In this document: piece after piece, positions 459-6,703 of the stretch
How the letters are laid out: each line of letters opens with the position of its first letter
Position numbering within the stretch: the stretch's first letter is position 1
Origin: Oscillospiraceae bacterium
Lineage (GTDB): Bacteria > Bacillota > Clostridia > Oscillospirales > Ruminococcaceae
Length of the DNA: 10,338 nucleotides
NCBI GenBank assembly: GCA_031260615.1
Contig: JAISLG010000035.1
Location: forward strand, 1 to 10,338
Direction of reading: 5' to 3'
Notes under the pieces: generated by a model
Told to the model about the DNA's origin: nothing
Databases searched by the model: none
What the model saw: only the letters and a program-made list of their open reading frames with translations
Made by a program: the position numbers and the translations under genes

Positions 459-1505
459 ATGTTAAATTCCTTTTCCGATAGTTATAAATCCGCTGGTGTG
501 GATATTGAGGCAGGTTATGCTTCTGTCAACCTTATGAAAGAACACGTTGAACGAACCCGAGTTAAGGGAGCGTTCGATGCTCTCGGCGGTTTTGGGGGGT
601 TGTTTCTTCCTGACTTGTCGGGTATGAAAGAGCCTGTTCTTGTGTCGGGTACGGACGGTGTAGGTACAAAACTTAAACTTGCGTTTCTCCTTAACCGCCA
701 CGATACTATCGGTATCGACTGCGTTGCTATGTGCGTCAACGATATTATCTGTTCGGGGGCAAAACCACTGTTCTTCCTCGACTATATCGCTTGCGGTAAA
801 AATTCCCCCGAAAAAATCGCGCAGATTGTAAAAGGCATCGCGGACGGCTGTGTATCTGCCGGTTGCGCGCTCGTGGGCGGCGAAACCGCTGAAATGCCCG
901 GGTTCTATAAAGAGGACGAATACGACCTTGCAGGATTCTCCGTCGGTATCGTTGATAGACCTAAAATTACCGATAAAACCGCTATGCAAGTCGGCGACGC
1001 AATTATCGGACTCGAAAGTACCGGGTTACACTCCAACGGATTCTCCCTCGTCCGCAAAGTGTTCAATATCAATAACCCCGACAGGCTCGCAATTAAAGTA
1101 CATGGGTCGGAACATACACTCGGCGAAATATTACTCGCGCCTACCGCTATATATGTCAAACCCGTCCTCAAAGCGATTGAAAATATAAAAGTATCGGCTA
1201 TATCGCATATTACGGGCGGCGGTTTCTACGAGAACGTACCGCGCTCGTTCCCCGAACATTTAGCGGCGGTTGTCAAAAAAGACAGTTACCCCGTCCACCC
1301 CATTTTCAAACTTCTCCAAGACACGGGGCATATCCCCGAACACGATATGTATAACACGTTTAATATGGGTATCGGTATGACACTTGTCGTGCCGAAAGCA
1401 GATGCCAAAGACACCCTCCGTATTATCGGGGAGGCAGGGCAAGTCTGCTATCAAATCGGGGAAGTTACCGAACGCACGGATAATGGCGCGGTAGTTATCG
1501 TATAA
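459..1505 (+). CDS. purM: Phosphoribosylformylglycinamidine cyclo-ligase (AIR synthetase)
   Basis: PurM converts formylglycinamidine ribonucleotide plus ATP to aminoimidazole ribonucleotide, step 5 of de novo purine synthesis, in the cytosol. The 348-residue product is close to the usual length (E. coli PurM is 345). It carries the expected PurM/PurL-superfamily motifs: GTDGVGTKLKL (64-74, ATP/substrate loop), RHDTIGIDCVAMCVND (80-95), GGETAEMPG (140-148), GLHSNGFSLVRK (189-200), HITGGGFYENVPR (250-262) and FNMGIGM (301-307). The ATG start is supported because the N-terminus aligns with E. coli PurM (SYKSAGVDIEAG). No Shine-Dalgarno is visible before it. Only one base separates its stop from the purN start, so translation is probably coupled. 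It is the first gene after the 381-409 promoter. Confidence 0.97.
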   Translation: MLNSFSDSYKSAGVDIEAGYASVNLMKEHVERTRVKGAFDALGGFGGLFLPDLSGMKEPVLVSGTDGVGTKLKLAFLLNRHDTIGIDCVAMCVNDIICSGAKPLFFLDYIACGKNSPEKIAQIVKGIADGCVSAGCALVGGETAEMPGFYKEDEYDLAGFSVGIVDRPKITDKTAMQVGDAIIGLESTGLHSNGFSLVRKVFNINNPDRLAIKVHGSEHTLGEILLAPTAIYVKPVLKAIENIKVSAISHITGGGFYENVPRSFPEHLAAVVKKDSYPVHPIFKLLQDTGHIPEHDMYNTFNMGIGMTLVVPKADAKDTLRIIGEAGQVCYQIGEVTERTDNGAVVIV

Positions 1506-1506
1506 T

Positions 1507-2103
1507 ATGAATATTACTGTGTGTGTGAGCGGCGGCGGCACTAATTTACAGTCGCTGATTGACAACGGGATTGACATTAGTTTGGTTATCGCGAGTAAAC
1601 CGAATATATACGCGATTGAACGGGCAAACGCGGCGAATATACCCGTAATTGTCGGGGCGATACCCGATAACTTGGACACGGATTTGATTGTCCTTGCAGG
1701 GTATTTGCGGATTGTACCACCCGAGATATGCGACAAGTATCGGGTTATTAACATACACCCCGCGTTACTGTCCGTCAAAAATAAGGACGGCACCCCGAAA
1801 TACGGGGGCGTGGGTATGTACGGGTTAAACGTGCATCGTGCCGTCCTCACTGCACACGAAAAATACACGGGTGCAACCGTACACTATGTAACAGCCGAGG
1901 TGGACGGCGGTGAAATTATACTTGAAAAATCCGTCGAAATACCCGATAATATATACGCTACTCCCGACCTCGATACGGCTGCACGAGAACTCCAACGGCT
2001 CGTTATGGACAAGTGCGAACGGGTGGTTATGCCAATGGCGGTGCGGAATATTATTGGTTTGGGTTATGAGAAATTACCCGATGAACCGAAATTTTCCGAA
2101 TAA
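1507..2103 (+). CDS. purN: Phosphoribosylglycinamide formyltransferase with an appended C-terminal tail
   Basis: PurN transfers a formyl group from 10-formyl-THF to glycinamide ribonucleotide, step 3 of purine synthesis. The 198-residue protein has the phosphate-binding GGGTN (9-13), the catalytic Asn82 and His84 in INIHPALL, and the catalytic Asp133 in TAEVDGG, matching E. coli N106, H108 and D144. Compared with E. coli PurN it lacks roughly 18-24 residues before VLAGYLRI. This is the helical segment following the first Rossmann strands, where the chain goes directly from IPVIVGAIPDNL to DTDLIVLAGY. It also has an insertion (SVKNKDGTPK, 89-98) after the active-site loop. The last 14 residues (LGYEKLPDEPKFSE) are not PurN-like and are identical to the C-terminus of the next small protein. 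The start overlaps the purM end almost directly and has no Shine-Dalgarno. Confidence 0.93.
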   Translation: MNITVCVSGGGTNLQSLIDNGIDISLVIASKPNIYAIERANAANIPVIVGAIPDNLDTDLIVLAGYLRIVPPEICDKYRVINIHPALLSVKNKDGTPKYGGVGMYGLNVHRAVLTAHEKYTGATVHYVTAEVDGGEIILEKSVEIPDNIYATPDLDTAARELQRLVMDKCERVVMPMAVRNIIGLGYEKLPDEPKFSE

Positions 2104-2126
2104 TTTTTTTAGGGAGATACATTATG
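2051..2126 (+). repeat. Direct repeat copy 1: purN tail to start of next gene
   Basis: Bases 2051-2126 match 2263-2341 (offset 212). The coding part, 53 nt including the stop, is 49/53 identical. It is followed by a T-tract (7 T here, A plus 9 T in copy 2), then AGGGAG and a 16-nt segment to the ATG with two differences. All six substitutions are transitions. The repeat unit therefore covers peptide tail, stop, ribosome binding site and next start codon. Confidence 0.92.
2111..2116 (+). promoter_or_regulatory. Strong ribosome binding site
   Basis: AGGGAG lies 7 nt before the ATG at 2124. It is notable because purM, purN, the lipoprotein, the ECF gene and the PHP gene have no comparable Shine-Dalgarno. 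This site and its near copy at 2326 are carried in the duplicated segment. Confidence 0.8.
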
Positions 2127-2315
2127 GCTCAGTTTGATATTCAAGAAACACGAAAAGACGAATTGATACATCTGTATCAAGATTTGGAACTGCTCTATTC
2201 AAAAGGCAATAAAGAAAAAATCGAGGCTGGAATATGGCTTGCCGAAAGAATGAGAAAACGGCTTATTGATTTGGGTTACGAGAAATTACCCGATGAACCA
2301 AAATTTTCTGAATAA
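2124..2315 (+). CDS. Small protein of unknown function (63 aa), paralogue A
   Basis: I do not recognise this family. The 63-residue, charged, Cys-free protein has no signal peptide or membrane segment. Residues about 11-27 and 30-50 look like two amphipathic helices (DELIHLYQDLELLYSKG and KEKIEAGIWLAERMRKRLIDLG), followed by a polar, Pro-containing tail, LPDEPKFSE. It aligns without gaps over 32 residues with the next gene product: DLELL/DLKIL, a shared WLAE/RLAE core, and RLIDLG/RLIALG followed by LPDEP/IPDVP. The strong AGGGAG site 7 nt upstream supports expression. It lies 20 nt after purN, inside the purine operon. Its last 14 residues are identical to those of PurN. It is not PurS by sequence pattern. 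A role in purine enzyme assembly or regulation is possible but unproven. Confidence 0.8.
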   Translation: MAQFDIQETRKDELIHLYQDLELLYSKGNKEKIEAGIWLAERMRKRLIDLGYEKLPDEPKFSE

Positions 2316-2341
2316 ATTTTTTTTTAGGGAGGTACACTATG
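2263..2341 (+). repeat. Direct repeat copy 2: end of small gene A to start of small gene B
   Basis: This is the partner of 2051-2126. It encodes the last residues of small protein A, the stop, a longer T-tract, AGGGAGG and the ATG of small gene B. The three coding differences within the last 14 codons (TAT/TAC, CCG/CCA, TCC/TCT) are all synonymous. The only amino-acid change (Gly/Asp) is just upstream of the identical tail. Confidence 0.92.
2326..2332 (+). promoter_or_regulatory. Strong ribosome binding site
   Basis: A full AGGGAGG lies 6 nt before the ATG at 2339. Like the 2111 site it follows directly on a run of T residues. It is the best Shine-Dalgarno in the window. Confidence 0.82.
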
Positions 2342-2521
2342 ACTTTACCTGAAATGCAAAATATACAACTTCATTCGTATATTGACGTAATCTTGGACTT
2401 GAAAATACTCAAATCGCAACTGACAGCCGACGAATACAAGGCGGCGGCTCGGCTCGCGGAAATGAGTAAAGAACGCTTAATTGCACTCGGTGTGCAGAAT
2501 ATCCCCGATGTTCCGCAATAA
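2339..2521 (+). CDS. Small protein of unknown function (60 aa), paralogue B
   Basis: Paralogue of the preceding 63-aa protein, family not recognised. The 60-residue chain appears to be an all-alpha helical hairpin: a helix around 12-28 (HSYIDVILDLKILKSQL), a second around 30-50 (ADEYKAAARLAEMSKERLIALG), and a short tail, VQNIPDVPQ. The conserved positions with paralogue A are Asp-Leu at the end of helix 1, a Leu-Ala-Glu core in helix 2, Arg-Leu-Ile-x-Leu-Gly at its end, and Pro-Asp-x-Pro in the tail. Protein divergence is much greater than in the duplicated A/purN tail, so the A/B duplication is old. The gene has a consensus Shine-Dalgarno and ends in a double stop, TAATAA. The 146 bp after it contain a micro-ORF and an intergenic repeat before the next purine gene. 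Confidence 0.78.
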   Translation: MTLPEMQNIQLHSYIDVILDLKILKSQLTADEYKAAARLAEMSKERLIALGVQNIPDVPQ

Positions 2522-2540
2522 TAAACGGAGATAAATACCA

Positions 2541-2567
2541 ATGCCTCGCTTCACCCCCCCACACTAA
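2541..2567 (+). other. Possible micro-ORF or gene-start remnant (8 codons)
   Basis: After gene B, CGGAG (2526-2530) followed by ATAAATACCA and ATG at 2541 resembles the stop-ribosome-binding-site-start modules that precede genes A and B. The frame encodes only MPRFTPPH before TAA. It may be a relic of a third small paralogue or chance. No attenuator-type codon run is present. Confidence 0.2.
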
Positions 2568-2575
2568 CCAATATT

Positions 2576-2645
2576 ATATACTCCGTATCGGTAAAGTCGC
2601 TCTACCGCAAAAACGCGGAGCATTTTTTAGTGGTGTTGCGATATA
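2576..2645 (+). repeat. Dispersed ~70-bp structured element, copy 1
   Basis: This element is nearly identical to 5792-5860. Two mutually exclusive folds can be drawn. In fold 1, CTCCG (2581-2585) pairs with CGGAG (2616-2620), enclosing CGGTA (2589-2593) paired with TACCG (2603-2607), and is followed by six T residues (2623-2628). In fold 2, TACCGCAA (2603-2610) pairs with TTGCGATA (2636-2643), 7 of 8 positions. It ends 22 nt before the ATG of the PurO-like gene, whose AGGAA site (2654-2658) lies just downstream. It may be a MITE-like repeat or a cis-acting RNA. It does not match a riboswitch class that I recognise. Confidence 0.75.
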
Positions 2646-2667
2646 AATTAAACAGGAAATACTAACT

Positions 2668-3375
2668 ATGCAAATACTCGAAACACTCCCCTACCACGGG
2701 CGCGGCATAATTGTCGGCAAAACCGACGACGGAAAAGCCGCTGTCGGTTACTTTATATCAGGACGCAGCGCGAATAGCCAAAACCGTATTTTTGAAACCA
2801 ACCGCGAATACGGCGCGTCCGAAATAATACGCACCGCGCCGTTCGACTCGTCTAAGGTTACTGACCCGTCACTCATAATATACAACGCCGTCCGTAACCT
2901 CGGTAACAAAACTATTGTCACCAACGGCGACCAGACCGATACAATTTATGAACTTATGGATAAGCAATATTCGTTTGAGCAGTCACTCCGCGGGCGCGAG
3001 TATGAACCCGATTCGCCTAACTATACCCCCCGTATCAGTACCGTAATACACATCGACCGAAAAGGTGACTTTAACTATGCAATATCAATACTCAAAAAAA
3101 GCGGCGGCAATGAAACTAATAGGCATACTTTCTCCTATTCTAATCCCGCTCGCGGCAAAGCGCGTTTTATCCGCACTTATCGGGGAGAACAAGACGGTGT
3201 ATTGCTTCCGTTTGACGGAGAGCCAATCGAAACCCCGATAAAAAATACCATTGACGAGTTCTCCGCCGATATTTGGAACAGTTTGTCGCCCGATTACAAA
3301 ATATCGTTGGTTACGCGGTTTATCGACCCGACAACAGGTGAATATGAGCAAAATATCATAAACAAACACGGGTAA
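2668..3375 (+). CDS. purO: IMP cyclohydrolase, PurO-like family
   Basis: This is predicted to close the second ring of the purine by converting FAICAR to IMP, the last de novo step. The 235-residue protein looks like the PurO-type (archaeal-style) IMP cyclohydrolase family that also occurs in Clostridia, not the PurH C-terminal/N-terminal type. Family-like segments are YHGRGIIVG (9-17), YFISGRSANSQNR (28-40), TNGDQTDTI (85-93), EPDSPNYTPRIS (113-124) and a C-terminal TRFIDPTTGEYEQNIINK. A Shine-Dalgarno, AGGAA (2654-2658), precedes the ATG by 9 nt. The setting downstream of purM and purN agrees with the role. If it is active, the organism probably carries a separate AICAR formyltransferase gene elsewhere. 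Whether it is the main IMP cyclohydrolase cannot be seen here. Confidence 0.88.
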   Translation: MQILETLPYHGRGIIVGKTDDGKAAVGYFISGRSANSQNRIFETNREYGASEIIRTAPFDSSKVTDPSLIIYNAVRNLGNKTIVTNGDQTDTIYELMDKQYSFEQSLRGREYEPDSPNYTPRISTVIHIDRKGDFNYAISILKKSGGNETNRHTFSYSNPARGKARFIRTYRGEQDGVLLPFDGEPIETPIKNTIDEFSADIWNSLSPDYKISLVTRFIDPTTGEYEQNIINKHG

Positions 3376-3380
3376 TTGCT

Positions 3381-4046
3381 ATGCGTAGTGGGTTGCTTGC
3401 TATACCTCTTGACGAAGCGTTCGCACAGGCAGTCGAGGACGATACCTGCCCTCTTTGTGTAATGCTCAAAACACTCGAACTCCGCGTGGCGGAATACGTC
3501 ACGGGTCCCGCTATGATGGAACCCGACTTCCGTACCGAAACAAATTCCAAAGGGTTCTGCAACAAGCACCTTAAACAACTCCTCGAACAAAATAATAGGC
3601 TCGGCGTAGCATTGATACTGTCCTCGTATTTGTCGATAAATAAACCGTTTTATCCGCATACAAAACGCACGGGCGAACTAAATAACACTTGCTTTTCGTG
3701 TGAGCAAATCGACAAGGGTTTTGTGGCTCTTACCAAACAAATATTGGTCGAATATAAGGACACGCCCACTTTCGCGCCGCTCGTTAAACGGCAAAAATAT
3801 TATTGCCTGCCGCACTATAACGCGCTTATATCCGAATATAATAAACTCCCGAAAAAAATACAAAAGGCAATCCCCGATTTCCCGTCCGTTATCGGCACAG
3901 TCGCCGAAAATACGCGCGCGAAACTCGAAACGGACATCAAAACTTTCTGTAAATCCTTCGACTACCGCAATATCGGAAAAGCACTCTCCGAACAAGAAAA
4001 AATAAGCATAGAAAATACAATGTACTTCCTCACGGGGGAAAAATAA
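3381..4046 (+). CDS. DUF6062-like double CxxC/CxxH protein
   Basis: The biochemical role is unknown. The 221-residue product resembles the DUF6062 family of Clostridia, including the N-terminal segment with CPLC, the GPAMMEPDFR motif (42-51) and GFCNKH. It contains two similarly spaced metal-binding-like modules: C23-x2-C26 with C60-x2-H63, and C104-x2-C107 with C142-x2-H145. The gap between the two half-motifs is about 34 residues in each, which suggests an internal duplication of a CCCH zinc-binding unit. The remainder is charged and helical, with no signal peptide or membrane segment, so it should be cytosolic. It starts 5 nt after the purO stop, without a clear Shine-Dalgarno, and is probably translationally coupled. 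A link with purine synthesis is only positional. The family assignment is from memory of the motif pattern. Confidence 0.8.
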   Translation: MRSGLLAIPLDEAFAQAVEDDTCPLCVMLKTLELRVAEYVTGPAMMEPDFRTETNSKGFCNKHLKQLLEQNNRLGVALILSSYLSINKPFYPHTKRTGELNNTCFSCEQIDKGFVALTKQILVEYKDTPTFAPLVKRQKYYCLPHYNALISEYNKLPKKIQKAIPDFPSVIGTVAENTRAKLETDIKTFCKSFDYRNIGKALSEQEKISIENTMYFLTGEK

Positions 4047-4061
4047 ACTCTATTAAAAAGA

Positions 4062-5156
4062 ATGAAAAAAAAATTATCACTGCTCATCGCAAGTATACTC
4101 CTCATCACGTCCGCAACCGCGTGTAAGAAAATACCCCTTGACGAATACAACGCACTCCACAGCCGCACATACAATGAGGGGCAAACTACCGAGGAAACGA
4201 ACACTTCCGCACCCTCGGACACGCATACTACCGCCACGGGAAAGCCCGATTTAACCGCGAATTGGAGTACCTCTTTGACCGTCACGGGTGAATTTTCCGT
4301 GTCGGAATCCGTTGTGACCGAACCGCCGATTATTAACGTGCCGAACTTCGTCACGGGGATACAAAACGGTGTCGCAAAATACACCAACGCGAATGTAATG
4401 AATGCCGAAAACGCCGCGATATACAATATCGACACGGGCGAACTCGTGTACCTCAAAGAACAACCGAAAATTAACCCGACCGCCGCCGTGCGTATCCTCG
4501 CCGCCCTAACCGCGTTAAACTACTTTGGGGAGGACGAGCAAATTACAATCGGAACGGAGGTTTCCCTCTCCAACGGGACAAAGTTAAAATACGCAAAAGG
4601 CACGGTACTTACGCTGAAACAGGCGATTGCCGCATCTATTGTCGGGCTGAAAGGGCAAGGTGCGAATGACGTCGCGTACGCAATCGCGGTTAATATTGCG
4701 AGGGCATACAGCAAAGATCCCGATATGACCGATACCGCGGCAGTCGCGGCGTTCGTGAATATGATGAAAGTTTACGCCGCCGATAAATTAAACCTCACTA
4801 CCTTTGAACCCGCAAACCCGTCGGGATACCTCGACAGCAAGCAAAACGCAACAATGCGCGATATACTGACTATACTCGCGGCGGCGGCAGAAAACCCGAC
4901 TATTACCGATGTATGCGCGATTAAAACTACTGCGGCGGGTAAGACGTTCGACCCAACTTTCCCGTCCTCTACCCTCGCGGATAACGGGGGATACGCATTC
5001 GCGCGCGTGGACAGTTACTGGTATTTCTACGGATTGTACACAAATAAAAAAGGCGAACGCCTTATTATTCACCTGTCCAATGGCACGGAAACGAACTCGA
5101 AAAAAGACTTGGCTAAGATGTTAGAATACGCTGTGAATGGGATACCACTCGAATAA
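4062..5156 (+). CDS. Lipoprotein, degenerate D-Ala-D-Ala carboxypeptidase-like (peptidase S11) protein
   Basis: The N-terminus is a lipoprotein signal (MKKKLSLLIASILLITSATAC, predicted lipidated Cys21). A Thr/Ser-rich linker (about 30-90) reaches across the wall, and an S11-like penicillin-binding domain follows (about 105-360). The fold signs are clear: ENAAIYNIDTGELVY, the long helix PTAAVRILAALTAL, GTVLTLKQAIAASIVGLKG and NPSGYLDSKQNATMRDILTIL. The catalytic residues are not conserved. The SxxK serine and lysine are replaced (A141, R144), the SxN motif reads G-A-N (200-202), and no KTG is found at the expected place near 312-316. It is therefore likely a non-enzymatic, cell-surface peptidoglycan-binding or structural protein. 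Length is 364 residues. No Shine-Dalgarno is seen. It starts 15 nt after the DUF6062-like gene. Confidence 0.82.
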   Translation: MKKKLSLLIASILLITSATACKKIPLDEYNALHSRTYNEGQTTEETNTSAPSDTHTTATGKPDLTANWSTSLTVTGEFSVSESVVTEPPIINVPNFVTGIQNGVAKYTNANVMNAENAAIYNIDTGELVYLKEQPKINPTAAVRILAALTALNYFGEDEQITIGTEVSLSNGTKLKYAKGTVLTLKQAIAASIVGLKGQGANDVAYAIAVNIARAYSKDPDMTDTAAVAAFVNMMKVYAADKLNLTTFEPANPSGYLDSKQNATMRDILTILAAAAENPTITDVCAIKTTAAGKTFDPTFPSSTLADNGGYAFARVDSYWYFYGLYTNKKGERLIIHLSNGTETNSKKDLAKMLEYAVNGIPLE

Positions 5157-5200
5157 CAACGTTCCCCTGATTGGTTTATGAAACGGATAATTTTGGTTTA

Positions 5201-5812
5201 ATGAATATAAATAAAAAAAAATATGCTGCAATTCGGCTCACTGTATGCGGAGTGCTTGCCGCGCTGTCGATTATATTTTACACACTGCTTGAATTTCCCG
5301 TGCCGGGAGCGTATGGATTTTTGAAAGTAAACCCGTCTGACATACCCGCAATACTCGCCGGGATATTCCTGTCCCCGTTTTACGCAATCGGTGTCATTGC
5401 AATACGGTGCATTGTGCATTTGATGAACACGACTACGGGCGGACTCGGTGAAGTAGTGGATTTTGTCATTGCTATTGCATCTGTGCTAATGTTCATACTG
5501 CCCGTGAAACTCATACAGCTTAAACCTGACTTGACCGCGAAACGCACAGCAATATCGTACATTGTCGGGGTTTTAGCCGCTACTGTTGCGGCGGTAATCG
5601 CGGGTGCGCTCATAAACCTTGTTACGTTCAAGGCGTTTATGGGGCTTATGGCACCCACAGTACCCGTGAATTGGGCGATGACTAAGGACTTTATACTGTT
5701 CGGCGGCACGCCTTGTACATTACTCCGCTCCGCGCTTAACTTCGGGGCGGCTGTCGTAATATGCCCCATTCTCGCCCCGACGTTAAAAAGAATATACTCC
5801 TTATCGGTATAA
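5201..5812 (+). CDS. ECF transporter S component, RibU-like
   Basis: This is a substrate-binding membrane subunit of an energy-coupling factor vitamin transporter. It would dock on a shared EcfT/EcfA module not encoded here. The product is hydrophobic, with about five or six membrane segments near 12-31, 47-67, 86-104, 117-142 and 173-195. The pattern after helix 1, GFLKVNPSDIPAILAGIFLSPFYA (39-62), followed by HLMNTTTGGLGEVVDF (73-88), resembles the RibU branch, where riboflavin is the known ligand. The actual substrate cannot be fixed. The ATG at 5201 (MNINKKKYAAIRLTV) is preferred over an in-frame TTG at 5171, because the basic N-terminus and first helix start there. No clear Shine-Dalgarno is seen. 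The last residues, IYSLSV, and the stop are supplied by the 5792-5860 repeat element. Confidence 0.85.
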   Translation: MNINKKKYAAIRLTVCGVLAALSIIFYTLLEFPVPGAYGFLKVNPSDIPAILAGIFLSPFYAIGVIAIRCIVHLMNTTTGGLGEVVDFVIAIASVLMFILPVKLIQLKPDLTAKRTAISYIVGVLAATVAAVIAGALINLVTFKAFMGLMAPTVPVNWAMTKDFILFGGTPCTLLRSALNFGAAVVICPILAPTLKRIYSLSV

Positions 5813-5860
5813 GTCGCACTACCGCAAAAACGCGGAGTGTTTTTGTAGTGTTGCGGTATA
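5792..5860 (+). repeat. Dispersed ~70-bp structured element, copy 2
   Basis: This is the partner of 2576-2645 (roughly 85% alike by eye, with two one-base indels). Fold 1 pairs ACTCC (5796-5800) with GGAGT (5834-5838), encloses CGGTA (5805-5809) with TACCG (5820-5824), and is followed by five T residues. Fold 2 pairs TACCGCAA (5820-5827) with TTGCGGTA (5851-5858), a perfect 8 bp. It begins inside the last codons of the ECF S gene and provides its stop codon (TAA at 5810-5812). A TATAAT at 5857-5862 sits on its right edge, but no -35 box is correctly spaced. It ends 18 nt before the PHP gene. Confidence 0.75.
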
Positions 5861-5878
5861 ATAAAATAGACACCCATT

Positions 5879-6583
5879 ATGAAAAGAACTGACTTTCACA
5901 CACACATACTACCGAATATCGACGACGGCGCGGCAGATGTCGCTGAGTCCGTCTGTATGTTAAAAAAACTCGCGGCTGACGGCGTGGATACTGTGTATCT
6001 AACTCCGCATTACCGCGCGGACAAACAGAGTTACGATAATTTTATAAGCGGACGCGAAATCGCGTATAACCGCTTAGTTTCTGCACTTGAAACGGAACAG
6101 GATATGCCGACACTTGTCCTCGGCGCGGAGGTACGGGCATTCGATGAATTAACAGACTTGTCGAAAGACGAGTGGCGCGGAGTATCGGCGAACAATACGA
6201 TACTGCTTGAACTGCCTTACATACCCGCCCCGAATATGGTGGCGGAGCATTTTCTGCCGTTGTTTTCGCAGATACAAGGATACGGGTTTAATATTTGCCT
6301 TGCCCATATCGAACGGTACATTGCATACGCCGAACCCGACATACTGCGCGAGATAATATCCGCCGCCGCATACCCCGCGCAACTTAACTGCGAATCCCTC
6401 GTTGCGAATCCAATCGACAAATCGCGGCTGTTCGCGGAGGAATGCCTGAAAGACGGGGTATACGGTTTTTTGGGGACAGACTCGCACAATACGCACACGC
6501 GTATGCCGCGTTTCGCGGACACGGAAAAGTACATTAGGCGGCACTTCTCGGACGCTGATTTCTTGTCGCTGATGCCAAGGTGA
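5879..6583 (+). CDS. PHP-domain protein tyrosine phosphatase, CpsB/CapC (YwqE) type
   Basis: This is a metal-dependent (Mn-type) PHP phosphatase of the family that dephosphorylates bacterial tyrosine kinases controlling capsule and exopolysaccharide synthesis. The 234-residue product (relatives are about 250) carries all metal-site motifs: DFHTHILPNIDDGA (5-18), TPHYR (42-46), GAEVR (82-86), LAHIERY (141-147) and LGTDSHN (198-204). It is cytosolic and has no signal peptide. The start lies 18 nt after the structured repeat, without a clear Shine-Dalgarno. No tyrosine kinase (CpsD/YwqD) or capsule gene is visible in the window, so the partner must lie elsewhere or the enzyme has another substrate. 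It is the last gene of the rightward group, facing the leftward activase gene. Confidence 0.88.
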   Translation: MKRTDFHTHILPNIDDGAADVAESVCMLKKLAADGVDTVYLTPHYRADKQSYDNFISGREIAYNRLVSALETEQDMPTLVLGAEVRAFDELTDLSKDEWRGVSANNTILLELPYIPAPNMVAEHFLPLFSQIQGYGFNICLAHIERYIAYAEPDILREIISAAAYPAQLNCESLVANPIDKSRLFAEECLKDGVYGFLGTDSHNTHTRMPRFADTEKYIRRHFSDADFLSLMPR

Positions 6584-6631
6584 CAAGCAACCAAACAACA
6601 AGGGGAACAGCCAAAGGCAATAATCTTAACC

Positions 6632-6703
6632 GAGGGGGCTTTGCCCCCTCACCCCCAGCAGGGGGCTACGCGCCCCCTGCACCCCGCGGCAGCGTGACGC
6701 TGC
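6632..6703. repeat. Block of three consecutive GC-rich hairpins
   Basis: Three inverted repeats follow each other in the convergent intergenic region. GAGGGGGC/GCCCCCTC (6632-6650) has 8 bp with a TTT loop, GCAGGGGGC/GCCCCCTGC (6658-6680) has 9 bp with a 5-nt loop, and GCAGCG/CGCTGC (6689-6703) has 6 bp with a TGA loop. None is followed by a T-run, so they are not standard intrinsic terminators. They look like a composite intergenic repeat element of the kind scattered in gut Clostridia. From 6704 to 6794 no gene is seen. Confidence 0.7.

Follow-up and report, generated by a model that had tools for sequence, protein, structure and literature searches.

Introduction

Chimeric and partial gene duplicates, as outlined in PMC3449122, arise by local duplication that ignores gene boundaries, and a reading frame with two sources is the result. 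The cases treated there come mostly from multicellular eukaryotes; the locus described here is alike in its outcome, and the gene concerned is a bacterial housekeeping gene, purN. Another gene of the locus, purO, is termed an archaeal signature gene in the relevant part of PMC3261824; in this bacterium it adjoins purN.

The window, i.e., the whole analyzed stretch of 10,338 nucleotides, is contig 130 of an Oscillospiraceae assembly (GCA_031260615.1; 965,798 bases, 167 contigs, 73% complete). The gene order is purM, a purN-like gene, two small genes A and B, purO, and further genes (Table 1). The purN-like reading frame has parts from two donors, the purN core and the end of A. With a probability of roughly 0.6, we interpret it as a lineage-specific chimeric PurN end formed by local duplication or conversion; the direction, the order of events, and the lack of a function for the tail are what we infer.

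Table 1. Features of the purM–purO region of the window.
Feature	Positions	Strand	Remarks
purM	459..1505	+	AIRS domains; upstream neighbour of the purN-like gene
purN-like gene, divergent, 198 aa	1507..2103	+	core approximately residues 1–183; shared foreign tail 185–198
Shared tail of PurN, LGYEKLPDEPKFSE + stop	2059..2103	+	codon comparison; absent from the PurN relatives examined
Repeat copy 1: purN end, stop, T-tract, ribosome-binding site, A start	2051..2129	+	
Small orphan gene A, 63 aa	2124..2315	+	model: helical hairpin and coil tail
Repeat copy 2: A end, stop, T-tract, ribosome-binding site, B start	2263..2344	+	
Small orphan gene B, 60 aa	2339..2521	+	A paralogue; diverged C-terminal motif LGVQNIPDVP
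purO-type IMP cyclohydrolase	2668..3375	+	PF07826, E 1.3e-58

Results

The PurN-Like Protein

The product of the purN-like gene scores above the cut-off for the formyl transferase N-terminal domain (PF00551; 87.4 bits vs 26.1, E 1.2e-24) and matches solved PurN structures by sequence (best E 1.2e-14). For the NCBIfam equivalog TIGR00639, still the best of the seven families listed, it reaches 95.5 bits, below the curated cut-off of 150.1, a naming threshold, and hence is called here a divergent PurN-like protein. The columns of N82, H84, and D133, which we take to be the catalytic Asn-His-Asp with the same roles as in the E. coli enzyme, are invariant in an alignment of 40 sequences; judged by this alignment, the catalytic columns are intact. 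The nearest PurN proteins are 54–60% identical in the alignment, or 48–52% by BLASTP. Relative to the aligned relatives, there is an 8-residue insert after INIHPALL (residues 89–96), and approximately eight extra residues are inserted close to where the last helix begins (residues about 148–156).

In the structural model (pLDDT 93) the last helix spans residues 155–183, and neither helix nor strand follows; mean pLDDT is 78 at residues 181–190 and 46 beyond, with values under 50 at residues 193–198. Past the last helix, PurN relatives either end soon or carry some other, unrelated tail, both length and sequence being variable.

The DNA Repeat

The C-terminal 14 residues of the PurN-like protein are identical to those of the downstream 63-residue protein A, an identity first noted in a reading of the sequence alone (below, the sequence-only reading) and confirmed by comparison of the open reading frames. 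Its description of a DNA repeat with a 212-bp offset, running through the stop codon, T-tract, ribosome-binding site, and next ATG, holds as well, the start-to-start spacing being 212. The two copies match at 88% (E 1.6e-23 in a search within the same genome), and positions 2051–2103 and 2263–2315 agree without gaps at 49 of 53 bases. The repeat begins eight bases 5′ of the tail codons (2051 and 2263, respectively); the T-tract spacer differs in length by three bases between the copies and is followed by the AGGGAG site and ATG. Past the ATG, the similarity drops to the level seen between the starts of A and B; since the strong similarity fades just there, a copied unit consisting of the end of A and the leader fits the data.

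The repeat is not a chance resemblance, as copy 1, aligned locally to the 471 bases 3′ of it, scores 114, vs a maximum of 32 in 1000 dinucleotide shuffles of those bases; the next-best match in the same genome is a 19-base stretch with E 0.037. The longest exact string common to both copies is 20 nt, which makes a k-mer misassembly appear unlikely.

The Small Genes A and B

A and B share 19 of 60 residues (32%) with no gap or stop (pairwise E 2e-9), and none of 5000 shuffles reaches the alignment score. From this comparison A and B are old paralogues, B being too diverged from A for a recent copy. The best-conserved part is the C-terminus, RLIxLGxxxxPDxP, with 8 of 15 residues identical; its score is reached by none of 5000 shuffles, vs 27 of 5000 for residues 1–45. 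In both genes an AGGGAG site precedes the ATG. The model of A, tentative because it was built on a two-sequence alignment, has helices at residues 6–27 and 30–49 and a coil tail at 50–63 (mean pLDDT 84; 84 at residues 51–60 and 65 at the end). The body of A was also considered as a derivative of PurN and rejected, as residues 101–182 of PurN resemble residues 1–47 of A no more than shuffled sequences do (3908 of 5000 shuffles score as high).

The third-position GC content (GC3) of A, 19/63, differs from that of six other window genes plus the purN core (971/1787; p 1.6e-4, or 0.0012 for A without its tail), while B shows no significant difference (28/60, p 0.29). Hence, base composition agrees with a tail derived from the small genes for A, but not for B. 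The GC3 of the 14-codon tail itself is 5/14 vs 100/182 in the purN core (p 0.18), the tail being too short to tell.

A purO-like open reading frame lies within 400 nt 3′ of the purN stop in at least 43 of 103 related loci, a lower bound, as some loci end shortly 3′ of purN, and within 30 nt in 31. A and B thus occupy an often tight purN–purO junction. Immediately 3′ of B, at 2519–2567, a leader-like GGAGATA is followed by an 8-codon frame from ATG to TAA; by its sequence, this may be what is left of a third member of the small-gene array.

Other Elements of the Window

Between B and purO, an intergenic element at 2577–2646 is repeated at 5793–5861. It has 17 matches in the genome at E <= 0.001, including the query, the others being 75–96% identical; folded as RNA, it shows no exceptional stability (z -1.0). 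Near the contig end, at 70–276, there is a tandem repeat with a 79 nt unit (2.6 copies, 96% matches). The frame at 4062–5156 encodes a lipoprotein-like protein with no Pfam match and a weak similarity to the D-Ala-D-Ala carboxypeptidase VanY-D model (65.3 bits, cut-off 625); SxxK, presumably the usual motif of this kind of protein, is not obvious by eye. The stretch 1400–6700 contains 11 terminator-like sites vs 7.7 expected, with none in the purN–A–B part on the plus strand, and Rfam gives no match in the window.

Relatives of A, B, and the Tail

A search with A or with the A+B profile in a database of 5.8 billion proteins, reaching only relatives that share exact 5-residue words, returned no protein but A and B themselves. 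Among 71 genomes of the genus, A (at E <= 0.01) and the tail pattern each match the source genome only. In 394 genomes of the order, the A+B profile has four matches at E <= 0.01, namely its own genome and three single weak matches, which lie inside long frames of 455–1167 aa and are taken as chance; so are the results of an earlier search, with 15 of 99 genomes matched at E <= 1, the source genome included, and a best foreign E of 0.025. Viral contigs gave 88 pattern matches to the A+B profile, none of them confirmed, and A alone matched nothing in plasmids and phages. Pfam, NCBIfam, PHROGs, and PADLOC contain no accepted match for A or B; similarities of B to SAM_2 (E 0.053, below the cut-off), SAM_1 (E 0.11), and two PHROGs (E 0.049 and 0.22) were set aside as chance.

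The best phmmer matches in 18,813 ORF pieces of the fetched loci have E 0.028 for A, in a locus that had been fetched for that weak resemblance, and E 0.59 for B, vs 0.53 and nothing in the reversed controls. A fold search with the A model yields 36 PDB matches, all of them with E above 0.001. By these searches, A and B appear to be orphans; a family restricted to close relatives would have escaped them, and the absence elsewhere is weak evidence because the nearest PurN proteins are so distant. PurN proteins without the tail are common, and none has been seen beside A or B. A narrow literature search on PurN with a C-terminal extension found nothing.

Probable Assignment of the Tail to the Small Genes

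The pattern LGx4PDxP has exactly three matches in the (incomplete) genome assembly, at the C-termini of PurN, A, and B, and none in the reversed control. It is absent from the last 40 residues of all 103 PurN open reading frames called in 109 related loci. These comprise 29 loci from a 60-genome search (56 of 60 matched; 30 loci kept, the window's own excluded) and 80 others kept from at least 592; six of the 109 yielded no PurN frame and were dropped (eight with the stricter motif). Among the best 120 of 7989 PurN proteins, LGY, KLPD, LPDEP, and GYEK occur within the last 45 residues only in the window's own PurN. The tail is indeed alien to normal PurN, as had been proposed.

B, the old paralogue of A, carries the motif in the corresponding position, and the A–B similarity is strongest at the C-terminus; both observations suggest that the motif most likely belonged to the small genes before reaching purN. 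The sequence comparisons accordingly favor one direction: the tail most likely moved from a small gene to purN.

A Model for the Origin of the Tail

We propose that the old paralogous small genes A and B already lay between purN and purO when, recently, the 3′ end of A and the leader following it would have been copied onto the 3′ end of purN. PurN would thereby have gained the end of A and lost its own variable C-terminal end, a change probably tolerated as the tail lies past the final helix of the fold. In both models, the terminal helix ends where the shared peptide is joined on (residue 49 of A, residue 183 of PurN), and the peptide follows as coil.

Two routes can be envisaged. In one, unequal exchange at the similar leaders would duplicate A in tandem, and a deletion would then trim the first A copy to its last 17 or so codons, fused in frame to purN; as the exchange occurs at similar leaders, the copied unit would end at the ATG. 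In the other, a single event of one-sided gene conversion, anchored in the similar leaders and starting there, would transfer some 60 bases in the upstream direction into purN. Both routes fit, and the data do not separate them. Among the relatives examined, no intermediate purN–A′–A–B was found, nor was an un-fused purN beside A found in a close relative among the genomes examined. The scheme of the sequence-only reading, tandem small genes and a deletion fusing purN to the end of one of them, stands in that fusion with a small-gene end is the best account; its mechanism and order of events are unproven. Counting against a chimeric origin are the GC3 of the tail, not distinct from that of the purN core, and the silent changes discussed below, which mildly favor maintenance.

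Alternative Explanations

That A and B do not represent genuine genes, or that the repeat is an assembly artefact, is very improbable, even if no homologues of either were found (both as a profile; A alone in plasmids and phages) and the locus is known from one fragmented, incomplete assembly. The copies, unlike those of a misjoin, differ at several positions and have no more than 20 nt of exact sequence in common; the A–B alignment covers 60 codons and is free of gaps and stops, AGGGAG precedes the ATG in both, and the hairpin modelled for A has good confidence values. We also doubt that the tail is a lineage-specific C-terminus of PurN itself that was passed from purN to A. The variable length and sequence of relatives past the last helix would allow this, as would a tail GC3 not significantly different from that of the purN core; however, B carries the motif at the homologous place, no called PurN frame has it, and the third positions of A are AT-rich with or without the tail.

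Somewhat less remote, but still rather unlikely, is a maintained docking peptide: the two-helix A and B would bind a partner via LGx4PDxP, and PurN would have gained the same partner. The differences within the 14 shared codons (TAT/TAC, CCG/CCA, TCC/TCT) are all silent, as had been stated correctly, and three of three silent changes have P 0.007–0.055 without selection, depending on transition weight. However, the 14-codon frame is set by where identity ends, which weakens the argument: the next differing codon inwards, GGT/GAT (Gly/Asp), is a replacement still inside the DNA repeat, and with it three of four changes are silent, the chance of at least three being roughly 0.02 to 0.16 (silent fractions of 0.19–0.38, derived for the 14 codons). 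The conclusion drawn from the silent changes, that the peptide is maintained, is thereby reduced to a hint at most. A–B conservation peaks in the tail region; compared with a neutral simulation, codons 46–60 have 8 identical residues vs a mean of 5.1 (P 0.04), and codons 1–45 give P 0.34, although the boundary at residue 45 was a post hoc choice and the whole length gives P 0.06. On these sequences, it is possible that the motif is maintained in the small proteins. The coil modelled behind the helix end in both PurN and A would suit a docking peptide, but the pLDDT of 84 at residues 51–60 of A fits a packed end as well as a free peptide, the tail, A, and B were found in no other genome searched, and no partner is known. 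The occurrence of the tail in one assembly, without conservation, which the sequence-only reading had named as an outcome that would refute its interpretation, is what we see, but it is not decisive at the 54–60% identity of the nearest PurN proteins. Less likely again is the wider idea that PurN captured the docking peptide of lineage-restricted two-helix proteins by recombination between adjacent genes, and that the enzyme and the small proteins encoded in its operon compete for, or share, one partner. In the chimeric reading, which we prefer, the tail probably has no job of its own in PurN.

Discussion

The locus is a clean and fairly recent-looking case of a bacterial enzyme swapping its C-terminal end, stop codon, and the leader of the next gene with a neighbour, the exchange leaving the conserved fold untouched. 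Should a binding partner of the tail be demonstrated, the locus would exemplify the spread of a linear motif from one gene to its neighbour; at present, it is a curiosity seen in a single assembly.

The protein resembles PurN, the 10-formyl-THF GAR transformylase, in its formyltransferase domain, the N82/H84/D133 columns, and the matches to PurN structures, and its gene in the position between purM upstream and purO downstream; it differs in the foreign tail, the insert after INIHPALL, and the TIGR00639 score under the cut-off. Compared with the chimeric duplicates of PMC3449122, only the last 14–17 codons of the neighbour and the downstream leader have been gained here, and the purN part is unduplicated. 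We class the locus as a further example of local duplication producing a chimeric gene end, here that of a divergent PurN-like protein.
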